Below, in pieces: positions 22,183 to 31,338 of a DNA stretch of 64,000 bases. This DNA is from Streptomyces sp. 846.5 (GTDB lineage Bacteria > Actinomycetota > Actinomycetes > Streptomycetales > Streptomycetaceae), in contig NZ_SOBN01000001.1 in assembly GCF_004365705.1 (NCBI RefSeq), positions 2,590,001-2,654,000 of the forward strand. Direction: 5' to 3'. The notes under the pieces were generated by a model. It searched no databases and was not told the DNA's origin. It saw nothing but the letters and a program-made list of their open reading frames with translations. The position numbers were made by a program, and so were the translations under genes. Numbering within the stretch: position 1 is the stretch's first letter; each line of letters opens with the position of its first letter.

Positions 22183-23322
22183 TCACGCCAGCCGCCAGTG
22201 CGAGCCCTGCCGCTCCACCAGGCCCAGCGACCCGAGCTCGTAGAGCCTGTGCAGCACGGTGTCGGGCGACAGCCCCGCGCCGCGGACCAGTTGCTCCACC
22301 GGCGCGCCGCAGGGGCCGGCCGGGATCGCCTCCAGCACCAGGAGTGCCTCCCCGCCGATCGCGTCCAACGGAATCGCCGGTCCCCGGCGCGTCGGGGCCA
22401 GGTCGACGCCGATACCGCCCACCTGCTCGATGATCTCGGCTGCGTCGGTCACCAGTGCCGCCCCGGCCCGGACCAGTGCGTGCGCCCCGACCGAGAGCTC
22501 CGACGTGACCGGACCCGGCACCGCCATGACCAGCCGGTTGAGATCCCGGGCGCGGCGCGCGGTGCTCAGGGCGCCGCTGCGCCGGGCCGCCTCCACCACC
22601 ACCGTGCCGCGGGTCAGCGCGGCGATGACGCGGTTGCGCAGCAGAAAGCGGGGCTTGGTGGGGTGGGCGCCGAGTGGCAGCTCGCTGAGCAGCAGCCCCT
22701 GGTCCGCGATCCGGGTCAGCAGCGCGCCGTGGCCACGCGGATAGACCTGGTCCACCCCGCAGGCGAGCACGCCGATGGTGATCCCGGTGGCCGCGAGTGC
22801 GCCGCGATGGGCCGCCGCGTCGATCCCGTAGGCGCCGCCGGACACCACGACCCAGGCCGCGTCGGCGAGCTCGGCGCTGAGCGCGGTGGCGACATGGGTG
22901 CCGTAGCCGGTGCACGCCCTGGCCCCGACGACGGCGACCGAGCGCAGGGCGAGCAGCCGCAGCGAGGCGCCCCCGCGCACCCAGAGTGCGATCGGACGGG
23001 CCGAACCGAGGTCGTCCAGCTGGGAGGGCCAGTCCTCGTCCCCCGGGCAGACCAGCCGGGCGCCGAGCCGTCGGGCCCGGTCCAGGTCGGCGGCCGGATC
23101 GACGCCGCTCGCGCGGGCCTGGTAGCCCTCGCTGCGGCGACCGAAGGAGGCCGGGAGGTCGCGGCCCCGGCTCAGCCGCTCGGCCGTCTCGACCGGCCCG
23201 TGCCGCTCCAGCAGCAGGCCGACGGCCTCGTCGCCGGGTTCGACGATGCGGCACAGGGTGGCCCGGGCCAGCCGCTCGGCCTCGGGGACGACGCGGACGT
23301 CCGCACAGGTGTCGGTCAGCAC
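22183..23322 (-). CDS. dprA: DNA-protecting protein DprA (Smf)
   Basis: This 379-residue DprA binds single-stranded DNA and loads RecA during transformation or recombination. The Rossmann-like core shows VAVVGARACTGYG, VVSGGAYGIDAAAH, GVLACGVDQVYP and SELPLGAHPTKPRFLLRNRVIAAL. A C-terminal winged-helix remnant (about 310-375) is present. It begins 22 bases after the comM stop, so it normally belongs to a yraN-comM-dprA operon; here the mobile element in comM separates it from that promoter. Confidence 0.95.
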   Translation of the reverse strand: MLTDTCADVRVVPEAERLARATLCRIVEPGDEAVGLLLERHGPVETAERLSRGRDLPASFGRRSEGYQARASGVDPAADLDRARRLGARLVCPGDEDWPSQLDDLGSARPIALWVRGGASLRLLALRSVAVVGARACTGYGTHVATALSAELADAAWVVVSGGAYGIDAAAHRGALAATGITIGVLACGVDQVYPRGHGALLTRIADQGLLLSELPLGAHPTKPRFLLRNRVIAALTRGTVVVEAARRSGALSTARRARDLNRLVMAVPGPVTSELSVGAHALVRAGAALVTDAAEIIEQVGGIGVDLAPTRRGPAIPLDAIGGEALLVLEAIPAGPCGAPVEQLVRGAGLSPDTVLHRLYELGSLGLVERQGSHWRLA

Positions 23323-23344: not shown

Positions 23345-23968
23345 TCAACGGGGCAGGCCGCGGCTGAAGCCGCTGCGCAGGGCGAGGGCGGTACGGACCT
23401 CGTCGCGTTCGGGGCGGTCCAGGCCGGCCAGGTCCGCGGCGGTCCAGGCCACCCGCAGCACCCGGTCCAGGCCGCGGGCGGTGAGCAGACCGCGCTCCAT
23501 GTCCCGCTCGGCGTCCTTCAGCGCGCCGGGCGCGAGCCGCCAGCGGGTGCGCAGCTCATGGCCCGGGACCTCGCCGTTGGTGCGCCAGGGCGTGTCCCTG
23601 AGCCTGGCCGCGGCGCGGTCCCGGGCCGCGAGCACCCGGGCGGCGACGGTGGCGGTGCTCTCCGCAGTGGCGTCGCGTTCCATCAGCTCGACCCTGGTCA
23701 CCGCGTCCACCTCGACCCGCAGGTCCACCCGGTCCAGCAACGGCCCCGACAGCCGCCCCTGGTACCGGCTGACCATGGTGGCGGTGCAGTCGCACCCCTC
23801 GCCCCGGCGCGACCAGCGGCCGCAGGGGCATGGATTCGCCGCCAGCATCAGCAGGAACCGGGCGGGCAGCCGCAGCGACCCCGCCGAGCGCGCCACCACC
23901 ACCTCGCCGGACTCCAGCGGCTGGCGCAGCGCGTCCAGGACCCGGACCGGAAATTCCGGGGCCTCGTC
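23345..23968 (-). pseudogene. comM: comM (YifB Mg-chelatase-like helicase), 3' part
   Basis: This is the C-terminal 207 codons of a ComM/YifB AAA+ protein, in frame from the element junction to the stop: EAPEFPVRVLDALRQPLESG, then LMLAANPCPCG (sensor region with Cys pair) and the C-terminal Mg-chelatase domain. The 5' part lies 5.9 kb away at 29888-30873. The first Met in this fragment is within VVVARSAG, so if translated alone it would lack the whole ATPase P-loop. Rejoining at the shared TC (23967-23968 / 29888-29889) restores a 535-residue protein, the normal size. Confidence 0.93.
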
Positions 23969-23982
23969 ACCTTTTCCGAACG
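23961..23982. other. Left element-chromosome junction
   Basis: Chromosomal comM sequence GCCTCG runs to 23966, followed by shared TC (23967-23968), then the element sequence ACC and the arm TTTTCCGAACG (23972-23982). The arm is the exact reverse complement of the right-end arm. The 6-base spacer inside this junction is GTCACC. Confidence 0.85.
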
Positions 23983-24046
23983 TTGAACAGTTCGGGTTGA
24001 CCCTGACCTGGCGTGATGCGTCGCGTAGGTGTCCGGGAGGTTGTGG

Positions 24047-25291
24047 TCAGCTGATCGAGGTCCGGGTGCGGAGGGACGCCAGCAGTCCTGCGAGGGCGAG
24101 GAGCATCCAGGCCGCGAGGTAGGTGAACGCGGCGGTCGGGGAGATGGCGGTCCAGAGGATGCCGGCGACGGTGCTGGCGGCGAGGTTGCCGAGGGACTGG
24201 ACGGTGGCGAGCATGCCGAAGGCGGAGCCGCGCAGGTCCTTGGGGGCAAGGGCGGCGACGGCGGAGTGCTCGGCGGTCTCGACGGCGCCGATACCGACCC
24301 CGGCCAGGATGAACGGGATGGCGAGGATCGCGATGGTCGCGCCGCTGACTGCGAACAGGCCGAACGAGACGGCGAACGCGGCGACGCCGCCGGCCAGAAC
24401 GAGGGTCGGACCTCGGCGGCCAAGGCGGTCGGCGAGGCGTCCGGCCGGGATGGAGGCGATCGTGGCGGCGACGTTGTAGGCGGTGTAGAGGCCGAGCGCG
24501 ATCGTGGTCGCGGACTTGCTGCCGTGATCGGGCGTCAGCAGGTCGGTGGCGCGAAGGATCAGGAGGGTCGCGGCGACGTTGCCCGCCTCGAACGCGGTGA
24601 CGGCGCCGAGGAGTCTGCCGAGGTCGCCCTTCAGCAGCGGGCGGATGCGGATCTTGAGGGGGACCTTGTCGCGGCTGGTCGGGTGCGGGGTGCGGCGGAT
24701 CGCGTAGATGATCGCGACGGCGGCCAGCAGGCCCGGGATGACGGACAGTCCGATCGCCCACTTCACGTCGAGGGCGGCGACCAGGGCGAGCGCGAGGAGG
24801 GGTCCGAAGATCGCGCCGAGGTTGTCCATCATCCGTTCGAAGCCGTAGGCCCGGCCGTAGGTGTTGACGGGGACGATGTCCGCCAGGAGCGCGTTGCGGG
24901 CCGGGACCCTGAGCCCGCGGGCGGTCCAGGCGGCCGCGCGAAGCAGGCCGACCTGCCAGACGGCGGTGGCGCCGGCGGTGGCGGCGCCGAGGATGGCGGT
25001 GCTCGCGTAGCCGCCGACGGCGACCTTGCGGCGCCGGGCGGGGTCGTCGGCCAGGACGCCGCCGCCGAAGCGGGCCGCGCCGGCCAGGGCGTCGGAGATG
25101 CCCTCGATCGCGCCGAGGGCGGCCGCAGGGGCTCCGAGGGTGGCGGTCAGCAGGCTGGGCAGCAGGGCGGTGGGGATCTCGTGGCCGACGTCGGCCAGAA
25201 AGCTGGCGGTGCCGATGCCGCGGACGCCCGGTGTCAGCCACTTCTCCCCGTCCAGGGCGGGCTGGTCGGCGGTCTCCGCGGTCTTGGTCAT
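24047..25291 (-). CDS. MFS transporter carried by the element
   Basis: This 414-residue major facilitator has about twelve hydrophobic segments. The N-terminal motif FLADVGHEIPTALLPSLL corresponds to the (S)LLTDVSSEM.YPLLP motif of a large bacterial efflux-like MFS subfamily. The loop 2-3 motif GVLADDPARRRK is a weak version of motif A, and the loop 8-9 copy GRLADRLGRRGP is intact. It lies 45 bases after tnpC, the only non-recombination gene in the element. Export of a toxic compound is the usual role for such cargo, but substrate cannot be predicted. It begins at ATG 25291 without a strong ribosome site, and no terminator is obvious between its stop and the element's end, so read-through into the comM remnant and dprA is possible. 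Confidence 0.87.
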   Translation of the reverse strand: MTKTAETADQPALDGEKWLTPGVRGIGTASFLADVGHEIPTALLPSLLTATLGAPAAALGAIEGISDALAGAARFGGGVLADDPARRRKVAVGGYASTAILGAATAGATAVWQVGLLRAAAWTARGLRVPARNALLADIVPVNTYGRAYGFERMMDNLGAIFGPLLALALVAALDVKWAIGLSVIPGLLAAVAIIYAIRRTPHPTSRDKVPLKIRIRPLLKGDLGRLLGAVTAFEAGNVAATLLILRATDLLTPDHGSKSATTIALGLYTAYNVAATIASIPAGRLADRLGRRGPTLVLAGGVAAFAVSFGLFAVSGATIAILAIPFILAGVGIGAVETAEHSAVAALAPKDLRGSAFGMLATVQSLGNLAASTVAGILWTAISPTAAFTYLAAWMLLALAGLLASLRTRTSIS

Positions 25292-25336
25292 GGTCGGCAG
25301 TGTGCCGCAGCCGGGCGCCCGGTCGGCATTGGATGA

Positions 25337-25975
25337 TCACACGACTGCCGTCGGGCTGTCCCGGCTTGCGGCGGTGGGAACCGCGTGGAGGGCGGCTTCG
25401 CCGCCGGTCGGCGGGAGAAGTTCGAGGACCTGGGCTTCGAGGTCGGCGATGCGCTTGTCGGCGAAGCGGAGGTTGGAGCGGGCGCCTTCGAGCCGTTCCT
25501 GCAGGGTTCGGTGCTCGCGGGTCAGCTGCTGGACCCGGTGCTTGAGGGTGGTGTTCTCGGTGGTCAGAGACTGAAGTGACTCGCCGGGGACCATCTGGTC
25601 GAAGTCGCGGATCTGGCCCATCAGCTCCCCGATCCGCTGCCGCTGGGCCAGGACTTCCCTCTGGGTGCGGGTCAGCTCGGCCTCCGCGTTCAGAGCGCGC
25701 TCGCGCCAGGTCGCCTCGACCTGGTCGTGCTGCCGCTGGACCTGGCGGTCGTGGCGGCTGCGGCTGTCGGCGACGGCGTTCTGGATGAGCGCGCGGGCGT
25801 CGGCGTTCTCGTAGAGGAACGTGGCGGAGACGCCGGCGCGCTGGGCGATGCCGCGGATCGTGGGCCGGCCGCGTTCGCGGCGGAGCTGGCTGATCGCGGT
25901 GGCGACCTGTTCCAGCTTCTGCTGGGTCTGGGTGCGACGGGCTGCGATGGCAGCGGCGGTGGATTCGGGCCTCAC
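25337..25975 (-). CDS. tnpC: TnpC-like recombination accessory protein (DUF6262 type)
   Basis: The protein has 212 residues. Residues 18-65 form a helix-turn-helix-like region (LEQVATAISQLRRERGRPTIRGIAQRAGVSATFLYEN). A long coiled coil follows at about 75-195 with heptads such as LTTENTTLKHRVQQLTREHRTLQERLE. TnpC of Tn554 is a small protein that stimulates transposition and influences orientation; proteins of this HTH-plus-coil form are its usual partners in related elements. It starts at GTG 25975, which overlaps the tnpB stop (GTGA), indicating translational coupling. It lacks recombinase residues, so its role is accessory. Confidence 0.8.
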   Translation of the reverse strand: MRPESTAAAIAARRTQTQQKLEQVATAISQLRRERGRPTIRGIAQRAGVSATFLYENADARALIQNAVADSRSRHDRQVQRQHDQVEATWRERALNAEAELTRTQREVLAQRQRIGELMGQIRDFDQMVPGESLQSLTTENTTLKHRVQQLTREHRTLQERLEGARSNLRFADKRIADLEAQVLELLPPTGGEAALHAVPTAASRDSPTAVV

Positions 25976-28575
25976 GCGGCTTCCTCGTCGGTCTCGGCTT
26001 CGTGGCGGGCGAGTTCCTGGGCCCGGAAGGCCGTGGACCAGACGCGGCCGAAGTAGTCCTGCGGCCGTCGCAGGTCCAGGGCGAGTGCCTCATCCAGGAG
26101 GCCGGTGGCGGCCAGGGCCTTCTCCAGGCCGTCGATGGCGCGGGCGGTGGGCTCGAACACCTCGTGGAGGAAGTCGGCGGTGGCCGGGTCGGGGGCGCGT
26201 TCGGCAAGCGTGCGCCACTGCTCGCGCTTGCGGTGCCAGTAGACGAGGTCGGCCCCGGACAGGACGAACTTGTCGCAGTTGTGGCAGTCCATGCTCCAGG
26301 GGCAGGCATCGCCGTTGACGACAGGCTGGAAGGTGCAGAAGCCGCCCTCAGCGGGGGTGGAACGGCGGGTCAGGTCGATCGCGAGGGCCTCGGCCTGCTC
26401 CCGGGTCATGTCCTCGCCAGCGGACAGGACCAGGCCCGGCTCCGCCGAGCCCGGTCCTGCGACCCAGACCACATTGAGGGCCTGTTCGAGCTTGGGGTCG
26501 GTGTTCGCAAGGTGGACGTAGTGCTCGGCCATCGCGTCGGAGACCTGGCCGAGGTAGCGCTTCACGTGGGTGAGGTTCGCGCCGGCCTTGAGGAGGTTGG
26601 TCGCCAGGGTGTGGCGGGCCTGATGGGCGACGCAGTGAGTGAGATCAAGGGTTGCCACCCAGTCACTGAACAGGCTCTGAAACCATCCGTAGCTGACGCT
26701 CTTGAGTAGTGACCGGTTGGTTCCGCGGCGCGGGAACAGGGCGATCTCCAACCGCTCCTGCGCGGTCGGCGGGCGGCCGTGCCGCTGGACGAACCGGGCG
26801 ACGGTCTTGGCCTGGCGCTGTTCGATCGCGTGGAAGAGCCGCTCAGGGATGCGGATGCCCTCGTCCAGGTTCCCGACCTTGGTCTGGTCGTGCCAGAACA
26901 TCGGCAGGCCCTTAAAGCGGCCGATGCACTCCAGCCGCGCTTCGAGAACCTCCCCGCAGCGGCGCCCGGTCAGCACCAACGCCTCCCAGACGAGGCGCAC
27001 TCCGCGGTCTTCGGCGTCCATGTCGTCCAGACGGTGCAGGTTGGCCCCGTCGGCCAGCGCCCGGGCGACCTCGTCGGAGAACGGCTTGCGGCGCCCGCCC
27101 CGCTTGCTTCCGCCGTGGGGCAGCGCGACGACGAACGCGTTGTCCACCCCGAGCTCCAACGCCCGGCCGGTCTCCATCGCCGCTCGCAGGACCTGCCGGG
27201 CCCCGTCGAACGTCCGGCTGACAGTCGCGGAGTTGACCGTGTTCGGTTCGCCCGAGCGGACGTCGTGGATGGCCAGGGACTTCAGTCCGTGCGAGGCCCG
27301 GTAGCGCTGGTCGGCCACGAAATCGAGCATGTGCTGGCGGGTCAGGAACGAGGGATTGTGGCCTCCTTCCGGAGCACGGCTCTCCAGAAAGGCGGACAAC
27401 TCCATGCAGCCGCGCTTGGCGTTCGCCAGCGGGGTCAGGCTCCGCGGCGGATCGGTCAGCAGCCGGTGTTCAAGCCATTCCCAGAGAAGGTCACGCAGCC
27501 ACCGCAGCGACACCCCGGTCAGGTCGATGTGGCCTGCGCTCTGCTTGAGGCGGACGCCGAAGTGGTCCAGCTCGATGCAGCCGATCTCCTTCGTGTCCTC
27601 CCGCGTGAAGTAGAGCAACTGCAGATATCGCAGCATCCGCCTGGCGATCTTCGACATGTTCGGGGAGTCCCCCCGGAAGCGTTCGAGATCGAGGTCGGCC
27701 AGCGAGGAGACGTCATGAAGGCGGCAGTAGTTCGCCACCCGCTGCACGAACGTCAACGGCCAGTGGGCTCCCTCGGCCGGGCCCTGGGTGTGCTGGACGA
27801 GCGTCCACTTGATCTCCGCGCGAACCAGCGGCCTCAGTCCCAGGAGGGAGAGGTTCCCGTCCATCCGCGCGATCGGCTTCTCTCGCGCGCACCACTGCTC
27901 GAACGCCACCCGGTCCGCGTAGACGGCCTCCGGCCGCTCCGTCGGCAGGCGCTTGCTGTTCTCGCCACCGCATCGCGCTCCCCCCGGCCGGCCGGCCGCC
28001 TTGTAGCTCGACCAGTGCAGGTAGCAGAAGCCGAGCCAGTGCGCCGCCGGGTCCGGGCAGGCGACGACGAGGCAGTTCCCGAAGTCCGGATACGGCTCCC
28101 GGCCGATCAGGAACACCTCGACGCTGTCGGACCTGCCCTTCCGGCGCTGGTATCGCTGCCAGGATTCGAGGTTCTTCGTGTGCAGGTAGCAGAGTCCGTC
28201 GGCTCCCCAGGCCAGGGCATCGGGGCAGATCAGGCAGGGCATCCGGCCCCGCCCCCCGCGCGGTCTCAGCGGTTGCGCCTGGTCCACGAACCCGACGATG
28301 TTGCCACCCGCCGCCTGCCACTCATACCACTCCCTGGCGTGCTGGCAGCAGAAGTCCCGAGCGGTCTCACGGCCTCGCTCGCATGCCCCAACACGGCACC
28401 GCCACCCGAAGACGGGGTGGTCGGGCCCGACCGCGATCACGTCGCCGCGGAACACGGGCTCAAAGCCCGGGGCCGCGATCAGCGCCTGCAGGAGTTCAAG
28501 CCGGTCGGTGGCCGTGCGTGTCGGTGCCGTTCTCCCGACACCGACCAACGGAAGAAGCGGAAGGCGGGTGGTCAC
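25972..28575 (-). CDS. tnpB: TnpB-like large tyrosine recombinase with Cys/His clusters
   Basis: An 867-residue site-specific recombinase. Residues 60-205 hold repeated Cys/His pairs (for example C60/C65, C76-C77-x-H79, CLIC 114-117 with CYLH 129-132, C168/C173 with CYLH 184-187), suggesting zinc-binding modules. A core-binding region follows, then the catalytic domain: Arg539 in LTGRRCGEV, His651-x-x-Arg654-His655 in HQARHTLATNLL, and Tyr686 in AEHYVHL. The second His position is Gln677 (YLGQ). A further cluster lies at C747, C758, C764 and C767. GTG 28575 overlaps the tnpA stop; an open frame extends further upstream but inside tnpA. It would act with TnpA at the element ends. Confidence 0.9.
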   Translation of the reverse strand: MTTRLPLLPLVGVGRTAPTRTATDRLELLQALIAAPGFEPVFRGDVIAVGPDHPVFGWRCRVGACERGRETARDFCCQHAREWYEWQAAGGNIVGFVDQAQPLRPRGGRGRMPCLICPDALAWGADGLCYLHTKNLESWQRYQRRKGRSDSVEVFLIGREPYPDFGNCLVVACPDPAAHWLGFCYLHWSSYKAAGRPGGARCGGENSKRLPTERPEAVYADRVAFEQWCAREKPIARMDGNLSLLGLRPLVRAEIKWTLVQHTQGPAEGAHWPLTFVQRVANYCRLHDVSSLADLDLERFRGDSPNMSKIARRMLRYLQLLYFTREDTKEIGCIELDHFGVRLKQSAGHIDLTGVSLRWLRDLLWEWLEHRLLTDPPRSLTPLANAKRGCMELSAFLESRAPEGGHNPSFLTRQHMLDFVADQRYRASHGLKSLAIHDVRSGEPNTVNSATVSRTFDGARQVLRAAMETGRALELGVDNAFVVALPHGGSKRGGRRKPFSDEVARALADGANLHRLDDMDAEDRGVRLVWEALVLTGRRCGEVLEARLECIGRFKGLPMFWHDQTKVGNLDEGIRIPERLFHAIEQRQAKTVARFVQRHGRPPTAQERLEIALFPRRGTNRSLLKSVSYGWFQSLFSDWVATLDLTHCVAHQARHTLATNLLKAGANLTHVKRYLGQVSDAMAEHYVHLANTDPKLEQALNVVWVAGPGSAEPGLVLSAGEDMTREQAEALAIDLTRRSTPAEGGFCTFQPVVNGDACPWSMDCHNCDKFVLSGADLVYWHRKREQWRTLAERAPDPATADFLHEVFEPTARAIDGLEKALAATGLLDEALALDLRRPQDYFGRVWSTAFRAQELARHEAETDEEAA

Positions 28576-29774
28576 TCGGACTCCCCCCAGGCCGTCCGCA
28601 GGGCCGCGCCGAACTCGGGAGAGTGCAGGTCCGGGTGCCCGTAGACCTGGTCGACCATCTGGGCCGACGCCCAGTTGCCGACCGTCTTGGCGATCATGCT
28701 GTCCCCGCCGGTGACGTCCATGACGTCGTTGGTGAACTGGTGCCGGAACGCCTGCGGCTTGATCCGTCCCGGCAGGCCGGCCCGACGCCCGGCCCGGCGC
28801 AACACGCTTCGCGCCGCGTCCGCACTCCACGGCTCACCCCGGCCAGGGCCCGTCAGCTGGATCAGCAGCATGCCGTGCGCGGAGGCATACCGCCTGTACT
28901 CCGTAGTCATGTAGACGAAGTAGCTACTGATCATCGCCGGGCTGACCAGGTAGATCTCCCCCTTGGTCACCACCCCGTCGACCACCGCCCAGTCCGGCTT
29001 GATCTTCGCCGCCGCCCGGTTGGGATTGCCCCTGCGATGGCACACGTGCACGTGTGGCGCCTTGCAGTCCCCGCACTCCGCGTCCTCGCGCAGGTGGAGA
29101 TCGGACAGGTGAAGGCCCGTCAGCCCTCCGATCCGCATCGTGGTGTCGGACAGCCAGGTCACCACCATCCGGTCGCGAGCCGTGTTCACGACGCTGAGAA
29201 GGCCCCGCCGGGCCCCGTCGGGCAGCATCTTCGGATGACGGCGCTTGGGGGGCCGACTCGGGCCCAGAGGGTTGGCCGGCATCGACTTCTTCACATGCCC
29301 CAGGAATGCCCGACTCCGGTCGGCCTTCGTCGGCAGACGCCTCCCGGAAAGCTCAGCCATCAGTGCATCGTTGACCCCGCCGCCAGCACAGACGTGCAGG
29401 TAGAAGCCCTTCAGGCAAGCCGCCGCCACCTGAAGCGCCGAGTCCCCGCAGGGGCGCTTCGGCGGAACCCGCCACGGCTGCCCGTGGGGCATCATCACCT
29501 TCGCGCCGATCGCCCCCATGTAGCGATGGAGGTCCAGAAGCCGCACCTTCTCTGTCGACAGCCCTTCCCGAACACGCCAGCGCAGGTGATCGACGAGGCA
29601 GTAGGCGTACGTCTTCTGCGTGCCCGAGCCATCGAACTGGCGCAGGAACCCGTCCGACTCCTCGTCGACCGTGCCGTCGGGCCACAGAATCGTGTACGCC
29701 CACCCGCCGCCAGCAGGAAGCGCCTGGACCCGCAGGTCCTGCAGGACCATCCCCGTTCGCACATCGACTCCCAT
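28572..29774 (-). CDS. tnpA: TnpA-like tyrosine recombinase
   Basis: This 400-residue integrase is the first gene of the element. The catalytic domain has Arg214 in TTMRIGGLTGLHLSDL, Arg344-His345 in QAFRHQFTNDV and the nucleophile Tyr378 in VDQVYGH. Gln341 stands where HxxR-type enzymes have His, and Asn367 (VGNWAS) replaces the later His/Trp position. It ends in a four-base GTGA overlap with tnpB. The N-terminal 190 residues should bind the core site. It starts at ATG 29774, about 115 bases from the right end of the element, leaving room for a promoter and recombinase arm sites. Confidence 0.88.
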   Translation of the reverse strand: MGVDVRTGMVLQDLRVQALPAGGGWAYTILWPDGTVDEESDGFLRQFDGSGTQKTYAYCLVDHLRWRVREGLSTEKVRLLDLHRYMGAIGAKVMMPHGQPWRVPPKRPCGDSALQVAAACLKGFYLHVCAGGGVNDALMAELSGRRLPTKADRSRAFLGHVKKSMPANPLGPSRPPKRRHPKMLPDGARRGLLSVVNTARDRMVVTWLSDTTMRIGGLTGLHLSDLHLREDAECGDCKAPHVHVCHRRGNPNRAAAKIKPDWAVVDGVVTKGEIYLVSPAMISSYFVYMTTEYRRYASAHGMLLIQLTGPGRGEPWSADAARSVLRRAGRRAGLPGRIKPQAFRHQFTNDVMDVTGGDSMIAKTVGNWASAQMVDQVYGHPDLHSPEFGAALRTAWGESE

Positions 29775-29875
29775 CCGTCACATCGCTACGTGCTGGATGG
29801 TTCCAAGGTGCTCGGTAAATCAATCCATAACGGGGCGAAACTTCCTACTGACGGACCATCGGGTGACACAGAGGC

Positions 29876-29896
29876 CGTTCGGAAAAATCGAGGAAG
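29876..29896. other. Right element-chromosome junction
   Basis: The arm CGTTCGGAAAA (29876-29886) is followed by A, the shared TC (29888-29889), then chromosomal GAGGAAG of comM. The spacer in this junction is ATCGAG. With the left junction this predicts an attB core GTCGAG and an element core ATCACC. Confidence 0.85.
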
Positions 29897-30873
29897 AGAA
29901 CACCACGATGAGCAAGCGACACAGCCCCGGGGCGGGGCAGCCCGCTGCCGCCACCGATGATCGCGGGCATGGTGGTGGAGTGGTGCGGAGCACAGTAGGG
30001 GGCCGCGCTGACCAGCGGCTCTCCGGCGGGGAGCAGGCCCGCGACCGAGTGCACGGCGGTGACCTCCAGCGCCTCCTGCTGGGTGAGCGGCGGCAGGATG
30101 CCGGGGAGGCGCTCGGCCAGCATCGTTTTGCCGGCGCCCGGCGGGCCTTTCAAATAAATGTGATGGCCGCCGGCGGCGGCGATCTCCAGGGCGCGGCGAG
30201 CCTCGTACTGTCCGGCGATGTCCGCGAGGTCGCGGTGGTCGGGCTCGTCGGCGGAGCGGCTGCGGACGCCGAGACCGGGGAGGGAGAGCCCGGCCAGGGC
30301 ATTGTCCGGGCGCTCGGCGCCCACGACGCCGCTGTCGGCGAGCTCCTCCTCGGCCGGGAGGCGCCCGGTGAGCAGGCCGAGCAGCTGGGCCAGGGTGCGC
30401 ACGCCCAGCACGCTCATCCCGGGGACCAGCGAGGCTTCGGCCGCGGTCTGCATGGGCACCACCACCCGCTCGTATCCGGCGTCGGCTGCGGCGAGGACCG
30501 CGGGCAGCACCCCGCGGACCGGGCGGACCCGGCCGTCCAGGCCCAGCTCGCCGATGAGCAGCAGTTTGGCGATGGCGGCGGGGTCGAGCACATCGGCTGC
30601 GGCGAGCACGGCGCAGGCGATCGCCAGGTCGAAGCCGCTGCCGCTCTTGGGCACCGAGGCGGGCGAGAGGCCCACGGTGAGCTTGCGCTGGGGCCACTTC
30701 TCCCCCGAGTTCACCACTGCCGCCCTGACCCGGTCCTTGGCCTCGCTGAGGGCCTTGTCCGGCAGTCCGACGATGGTGAACGCGGCGACGCCCGGCTCCA
30801 GGTCGGCCTGGACCTCGACGACCACGCCGTCCACCCCGAGCAGGGCCACCGACCCGGTGTGGGCGAACGTCAT
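29888..30873 (-). pseudogene. comM: comM (YifB Mg-chelatase-like helicase), 5' part
   Basis: The first 328 codons of comM: the ChlI-like N-terminal domain (VGLPDKALSEAKDRVRAAV, GLSPASVPKSGSGFDLAIA) and the Walker A GPPGAGKTMLAERLPG, ending at GVLFLD, the Walker B. Beyond the junction the frame continues 14 codons into the element and stops at 29845, giving a possible 342-residue product without Walker B, sensors or C-terminus. It starts at ATG 30873, one base after the yraN stop. ComM is a hexameric helicase that extends recombination of imported DNA in naturally competent bacteria. Confidence 0.93.
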
Positions 30874-30874
30874 C

Positions 30875-31246
30875 TCAGCCCACCGCCCCGGGGATGTGGT
30901 CGACCCGGGCCGCGCCGCGCGGTGTGTGCACCACGCTGACCAGGTCGATCCGCACCCCGCCCGGGGGCGCCGGAGCCTTCCAGCGCTCGGCGAGCCAGCG
31001 TTCCGCGAGCAGGAGCAGCCGGTTCGCCTTGGTCTGGTCGACCGCCTCAGCGGGGCTCTGGAAACCGCGCTCGCTGCGGGTCTTGACCTCGCAGACGGCG
31101 AGGGTGTCGCCGTCCATGGCGACGATGTCCAGCTCGCCCTCGCGGCAGCGCCAGTTGCGGTCCAGCACGGTGAGCCCGGCTGCGGCGAGGGCGCGCGCTG
31201 CGGCGTTCTCGCCGTAGCGGCCCAGGGCCTGTGTGCGTGCGGTCAT
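30875..31246 (-). CDS. yraN: YraN family (UPF0102) endonuclease-like protein
   Basis: This 123-residue protein has the restriction-endonuclease-like core: RYGENAAARAL, then GELDIVAMDGDTLAVCEVKTR, where E/D...EVK match the PD-(D/E)XK metal-binding residues, then AVDQTKANRLL. Its biochemical role is unsettled; it is commonly found with comM and dprA, as here. The ATG at 31246 has GGAGGTG 6 bases upstream; in-frame GTGs just before it overlap the ribosome site. It heads the yraN-comM-dprA set. Confidence 0.92.
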   Translation of the reverse strand: MTARTQALGRYGENAAARALAAAGLTVLDRNWRCREGELDIVAMDGDTLAVCEVKTRSERGFQSPAEAVDQTKANRLLLLAERWLAERWKAPAPPGGVRIDLVSVVHTPRGAARVDHIPGAVG

Positions 31247-31338
31247 CACGATCACCTCCGCCCGGCAATCTGCCGGTTCCGGGGGCGCCGGGCCAGGGGC
31301 GGTCCTCAGCCTGGGGACAACTCGGGGGGTGTGAAAAA

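Follow-up and report, generated by a model that had tools for sequence, protein, structure and literature searches.

A probable Tn554/Tsy-type transposon in comM of Streptomyces sp. 846.5, and a candidate codon-phased target sequence in its actinobacterial family

The window analysed here (64,000 nucleotides of Streptomyces sp. 846.5, contig NZ_SOBN01000001.1, positions 2,590,001 to 2,654,000) contains a mobile element that splits comM at its Walker B codons. We consider it very probable, from comparison with its relatives, that this is a Tn554/Tsy-type transposon whose targeting is degenerate and codon-phased, with comM as a repeated, non-exclusive target. The element is genuine and well bounded: its gene set, its ends, its cores, the target pattern and the disruption of comM are directly visible in the DNA. 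The codon-phased target rule of the family is worth testing.

The element is made up of tnpA, tnpB, tnpC and a single MFS gene, each encoded by the minus strand according to the list of open reading frames (ORFs). Its parts and the two pieces of comM are as follows:
23972..29886, minus strand: element proper, 5,915 bp, with 11-bp inverted ends aligned with the family
28572..29774, minus strand: tnpA, tyrosine recombinase (YR) of 400 amino acids (ORF, Pfam)
25972..28575, minus strand: tnpB, large YR of 867 amino acids with conserved R..H-x-x-R..Y (ORF, Pfam, alignment)
25337..25975, minus strand: tnpC, 212 amino acids, DUF6262; TetR-like helix-turn-helix (HTH) and coiled coil by eye (ORF, Pfam)
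24047..25291, minus strand: MFS transporter, cargo, 414 amino acids (ORF, Pfam)
29887..30873, minus strand: 5' part of comM/yifB, 329 codons to the Walker B Asp (Pfam, joined frame)
23345..23965, minus strand: 3' part of comM/yifB (Pfam, joined frame)
29876..29886, minus strand: tnpA-side terminal inverted repeat TTTTCCGAACG (family comparison)
23972..23982, plus strand: distal terminal inverted repeat TTTTCCGAACG (family comparison)
29887..29892, minus strand: tnpA-side 6-bp core CTCGAT, encoding Leu-Asp in the comM Walker B and interpreted as the native target core
23966..23971, minus strand: distal 6-bp core GGTGAC (minus-strand reading), differing from the Leu-Asp codons expected in comM and read as a donor-site footprint
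29809..29819, minus strand: internal repeat of the end motif, TTTACCGAGCA, located 67 bp inside the tnpA-side end (coordinates from the offset, checked in the sequence)

The three tnp genes are coupled by GTGA overlaps (28572-28575 and 25972-25975); these, the ORF lengths, the MFS gene and the strand are as an earlier, sequence-only reading of this DNA had given them. Phage_integrase is matched by both TnpA (E 2.1e-10) and TnpB (E 1.8e-11) in Pfam, DUF6262 by TnpC and MFS_1 by the cargo protein. The residues R, R and Y are retained in at least 40 of 42 rows of the TnpA alignment, TnpA being without the conserved first His of the H-x-x-R box, and R, H-x-x-R and Y in at least 34 of 35 rows of the TnpB alignment; catalytic roles in both were assigned by eye. 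TnpB further has a Cys cluster at its C-terminus and an N-terminal extension with three C..C..C-x2-H modules (residues 60-79, 114-132 and 168-187) of the form C-x4-C or C-x2-C ... C-x2-H. These are invariant in all four aligned TnpB proteins, with their C/H positions kept in at least 33 of 35 rows, and it is possible that they are zinc fingers. An AlphaFold2 model of TnpB built on a four-row alignment was too poor to use (mean pLDDT 39.5), and a TnpC alignment of two rows was likewise set aside.

The interruption of comM is clear-cut. Both flanks of the element match halves of Mg_chelatase/YifB, and its removal in silico restores LFLDEAPEFP within a single 535-codon comM frame, in agreement with the sequence-only reading. 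The comM piece was matched in 31/31 genomes, and in all 30 relatives other than the host genome (G000) one match spans the site; the match in G070 falls into two overlapping pieces, whose break is not at the insertion site. A motif scan of 29 empty loci of relatives gave LFLDE with CTSGAC in 23 and LFADE in five of a more distant family; the match of L100 was off-target, and the 30th relative, G302, yielded no locus. With the tnpA-side core taken as native, the pre-insertion site is CTCGATGAG. The join predicted by the earlier reading is one base off from CTCGATGAG, and the 23 LFLDE relatives carry GAC at the position where CTCGATGAG differs. The ORFs flanking comM, 22183-23322 and 30875-31255, resemble dprA and yraN by eye; the insertion may therefore also affect a downstream gene.

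The family was represented by 47 copies: 31 matches from family genomes, two named contigs, three class genomes and 11 plasmid regions. The 31, which include the window's own, were kept out of 33 near matches at E <= 1.0e-64, spread over 27 of 297 genomes; the class search gave a match at E <= 1e-20 in eight of 394 genomes, the host's own included. Left out of the junction counts were L066, L069 and L072 (cut or decayed), L117 and L131 (no clear end), L133 (short TnpA), L034 (on a contig as long as that of L042 and taken to be the very same copy), L035 (without a tnpA-side end), and the plasmid matches H48, H50, H51, H53 and H58-H71, of which H58 was taken, by record length, to be the L064 copy itself. 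Near matches occurred only in Actinomycetota, itself nearly all that was searched; in the taxonomically broader plasmid collection every genus tallied was actinobacterial. Chloroflexi/Dormibacterota metagenome-assembled genomes gave four short, weak matches, which were not recovered at E 1e-4 and were rejected. Within the 9.03-Mb host genome the sole other TnpA match covers residues 192-383 at 32% identity. A further DUF6262 (TnpC-type) gene, L134, lies on another contig of the same genome (G000:C2:1341057-1341380); another element of the same broad kind may therefore be present.

The target gene is comM in 7/47 copies, as judged on the stretch at hand, and another gene in 40/47. Insertion in comM is not by chance, since these seven share both the codon of insertion and the kind of ends. 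Six of them are in one orientation and L063 is reversed; both orientations thus occur in the family, clearly in L063 and by eye in L051 and L042. The comM-inserted relatives L045 and L044 are 39.4 kb and 21.8 kb long against the 5.9 kb of the window element, and L032, with its 4.8 kb, leaves almost no space for cargo. The nearest relative, on plasmid NZ_CP107773.1, is 95.0% identical in TnpA, 86.9% in TnpB and 89.9% in DNA over 4,482 bp, and it splits whiB at LFVE/AEGAAQNRAK. Targets were named by Pfam on single gene halves:
L121: WhiB, from the downstream half; the 22-residue upstream half is without a match
L043: DnaE, from the downstream half
L049b: TniB/AAA_22
L060: SNF2
L116: ResIII/Mrr
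L124: Ku
L052: HD_4
L127: ADP-ribosylglycohydrolase
L041: NUDIX
L047: DUF5655
L122: HHH_6
L048, L049a, L115 and L130: AAA_22, rve, AAA_16 and ResIII, respectively, each below the Pfam cut-off
L114, L055, L056, L067, L046, L050, L051, L054 (HAD-like) and L064 (Ku): by similarity to named targets or by eye

By eye, the ATPase targets are struck at Walker B.

The bounds rest on the ends of these relatives. A common motif, TTT[AT]CCGACCG and variants, marks the tnpA side, and its mirror marks the far end; hence the element proper is 23972-29886, with the 6-bp cores outside it. The bounds 23969-29889 proposed earlier describe the same single element in comM, with both ends falling inside the cores. 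Likewise, the six-base exchange core of Tn554 type that had been postulated is present, whereas the shared 'TC' put forward as the exchange site is rejected: the junctions are two unequal 6-bp cores, and the TC lies inside them. Both ends were resolved in 31 copies (the distal ends of L057, L061, L065, L123 and L129, unsure by eye, were treated as unresolved), with equal cores in 12/31 and unequal ones in 19/31, including the window. In comM copies the tnpA-side core encodes Leu-Asp in 7/7 and the distal core in 1/6, the far comM half of L059 lying on another contig. Sister pairs point the same way: L125/L126 and L050/L051 each have the distal core GTGGAG in common and differ in their tnpA-side cores. 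L125 and L126 have identical TnpA and the same distal core at different places on two plasmids of Rhodococcus sp. WAY2. Because of this 7/7 against 1/6 and the shared distal cores, we favour reading the tnpA-side core as native and the distal one as carried from the donor site, a rule already reported for strand-biased circularizing elements (SEs) and Tn554-related elements (PMC10214605). The unequal distal cores are xxxGAx in 15/19 cases; earlier sites would therefore have resembled the present ones. The ends are also asymmetric: in 35/47 copies the end motif recurs, with at least 8 of its 11 bases, 66-68 bp inward from the tnpA-side end (67 bp in the window); such a repeat was found at 0/31 resolved far ends and in 0/329 control placements outside elements.

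For the target pattern, 39 of the 47 copies were grouped by hand into 24 target families, which were given equal weight. Their consensus reads NTS NTS [NTS GAS] GA, that is, hydrophobic codons followed by Asp/Glu, with T at -14, -11, -8 and -5, GA at -3/-2 and G and A at +1/+2. In 41/47 copies the best reading frame across the flanks has no stops, the other six having no stop-free frame, and in 34 of those 41 the core consists of two whole codons, seven departing from this (binomial p 9e-11 against one third, ignoring the kinship among copies). The frame was chosen by bias in GC at third codon positions (GC3), which is poor at orientation: L051 was called forward and by eye is reversed. When a matrix of the 23 non-comM families was run on empty comM sites, 20/23 fell at or below 6e-4 of 914,624 host positions (range of all sites 1.6e-5 to 1.0e-2), the background being every position on both strands of about 458 kb of host and not in-phase codons only. 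Leaving out one family at a time, with six of 20 background stretches, placed eight of 18 targets at or below 0.002, seven at 0.003-0.012 and three near background. The matrix results thus account for the attraction of comM but leave its high frequency as a target unaccounted for.

From these features we infer a circle and a role for each protein. TnpA and TnpB, with TnpC as an auxiliary factor, would pair the 11-bp inverted ends, and the element would circularise together with 6 bp of flank, which would be exchanged at the new site; the host's own six bases would remain next to tnpA, and the carried six would come to lie at the far end. The inner motif copy, 67-68 bp inward on the tnpA side only, introduces an asymmetry that plausibly decides which core is kept. 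Target choice would follow the degenerate codon-phased string, which encodes a hydrophobic strand with a final Asp/Glu and is strongly matched by the comM Walker B; comM is a repeated, non-exclusive target. By analogy with TnsF, the zinc-finger-like N-terminus of TnpB may be the target reader. More generally, the family may read the DNA codon signature of a buried hydrophobic strand with a final acidic residue, as in Walker B and sites resembling it, and so land in phase on functional codons in many unrelated enzymes, the far core recording the origin; this we put forward tentatively, rating its chances a little short of even.

With the transposon model, Tn554, Tsy with its TnsF, and SEs, hitherto described separately, could be drawn into one testable scheme, and the footprint core would be a travel record of each copy. 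Given the degenerate target, work on the evolution of target choice could perhaps start from the large recombinase. The comparison also documents comM-disrupting recombinase elements in relatives of Streptomyces, comM being struck in several separate branches of the family; in Acinetobacter, ComM inactivation by mobile elements has been linked to lower natural transformation (PMC11472951).

Several observations weigh against a transposon with codon-phased targeting. Transposition itself is read from sequence, and the local recoding of the tnpA-side comM flank described below is unexplained by simple insertion. Copies L048 and L071 have in common the distal core ATCGAC, which could be the native one, making them a possible exception to the core rule. 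Eight of the 47 copies stand outside the matrix for want of a nameable target (L057, L061, L062, L065, L068, L070, L129 and L132), and the core of L064 is out of codon phase. Three of the 23 empty comM sites score between 0.1% and about 1%, and the window's own comM flanks reach 1.3e-3 (top 0.13%) only; the near-background targets are dnaE in L043 (0.08), the target of L042 (0.08) and Ku in L064 (0.49). About one in 10,000 host positions scores like a typical comM site. Finally, the copies are not independent samples, and several targets are genes of mobile elements.

One rival view is that the pattern is a mere by-product of GC-rich coding sequence, with nearly random insertion and a weak core preference. 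About one third of the matrix information is indeed contributed by T in the second codon position, a frequent feature of hydrophobic codons; sites that match abound, and the background comprised all positions rather than in-phase codons. Even so, held-out comM sites lie in the top 0.06% in 20/23 cases, and the unequal distal cores, which are outside the present target, show xxxGAx in the proportion given above, so that we find this view highly improbable. A second view, that of the sequence-only reading, is a comM-specific Tn554 lineage with the Walker B codons as its sole attachment site. Its claim that the comM Walker B codons hold an element of TnpABC type with a 6-bp core is supported. Five of the seven comM copies, all at the same codon, fall in the window's own 12-copy TnpA clade, and the published Tsy is highly selective for comM (PMC10293859). 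The remaining 7/12 copies of that clade, however, lie elsewhere, including the whiB sister with 95% TnpA identity. On the TnpA tree (42 rows of at least 360 residues, L068 badly placed, rooting for drawing only) the comM label requires six changes, equal to the number forced by the starred branches, and 150 of 500 label shuffles needed no more. With 40/47 copies elsewhere, comM-only targeting is rejected, and a comM-restricted lineage is scarcely credible; since relatives land in many genes, comM looks like a favoured landing place, not the sole one. As a refuting case the same reading had named homologues at unrelated loci without the Walker B target: unrelated loci are occupied, but many carry a similar codon string.

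A different doubt concerns how this copy reached this comM. The junction-proximal comM codons (29887-29935 and 23951-23965) are densely recoded by synonymous changes, many to third-base A or T. Of the 22 codons at the junction, 15 show synonymous differences from each of the closest two relatives; the corresponding counts elsewhere are 51/238 and 53/238 (Fisher p 1.2e-5 and 1.8e-5, for a 22-codon stretch chosen after inspecting the data). With three more relatives, p is 0.023, 8.7e-5 and 9.1e-4. Homologous recombination could account for this if the copy had been imported from a strain with comM::element, together with some 50 bp of the donor's comM upstream and some 15 bp downstream, instead of transposing into this comM. 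Against import stand the very short putative tracts and the failure to find the recoded tract, within three mismatches, in any of 393 other family genomes. In other comM copies, moreover, junction GC3 falls little or not at all, the largest falls being in L045 (0.69 vs 0.88) and L032 (0.81 vs 0.91). Import is in our estimation unlikely; a mutational cause of the recoding is possible.

A last alternative is that the element is nothing other than an actinobacterial Tsy transposon, with YRec, HTH and TnsF. Tsy (ZooTsy; Faure et al., 2023, PMC10293859) is a YR transposon that inserts at the comM Walker B; it encodes an HTH protein and two YRs, a short active one and a large one (TnsF) that carries zinc fingers at its N-terminus. 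Its circle, its long and short ends and the comM Walker B insertion have been shown experimentally, 135 bp at the YR-gene end plus 20 bp at the opposite end being sufficient. The window element has the corresponding parts and the same comM motif: a short YR, a large YR with possible N-terminal zinc fingers, a small HTH protein, catalytic residues conserved in both YRs, and a two-site end beside the YR gene where Tsy has its long end. The layouts of TnpB and TnsF are similar, as compared by description only. The gene order, in contrast, is short YR, large YR, HTH here, whereas in Tsy the YRec and HTH genes are upstream of tnsF; and Tsy, from Zoogloea, is reported to be highly comM-selective, whereas the present family is actinobacterial, strikes many target genes and has its 6-bp footprints read out. 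Identity with Tsy is thus a possibility that we take seriously while leaning against it. The main text of PMC10293859 contains no word beginning Tn554 or Actino.

The Tn554 family (Tn554, Tn558, Tn6188) has tnpABC, a 6-bp footprint and radC of Firmicutes as target (PMC3788773, PMC10214605). It resembles the window element in its adjacent tnpA, tnpB and tnpC (TnpC here assigned by DUF6262 and position), in unequal 6-bp cores without target duplication and in insertion beside a conserved protein motif. It differs in target: radC there, and here comM, whiB, tniB-like and DUF5655 genes and others, with radC absent from the target halves named by Pfam and comM the target in the window. A tblastn search of plasmids with TnpB at E 1e-3 gave no Staphylococcus in its genus tally. 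SEs, mainly from Gammaproteobacteria (PMC10214605), are described as sharing an ordinary and a large YR, an auxiliary protein with a TetR-like motif and coiled coil, and a 6-bp footprint carried from the left of the donor; their fourth gene, Tfp, is not among the genes of the window element, which are the three tnp genes plus one MFS gene. Tn6022 also lands at the comM Walker B, using an inactivated YR, TnsF, as target selector, but transposes in the Tn7-like manner with target-site duplication (PMC10293859). The actinobacterial class of Van Houdt et al. (2012; PMC3414803) has a long and a typical YR and a TnpC relative, and its similarity to Tn554 was stated; the ends, cores and targets, not worked out in the accessible part of that paper, are added here. 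The kind of element is therefore already known, from the actinobacterial Tn554-like elements (2012) and Tsy (2023), and comM Walker B targeting is already published for Tsy (PMC10293859). The literature surveyed, with most subscription papers outside its scope, held no account of multi-gene Walker-B-type targeting by this family. As far as literature searches show, what is new is the multi-gene targeting, the carried-core footprints, the asymmetric ends and the zinc-finger-like N-terminus of TnpB.

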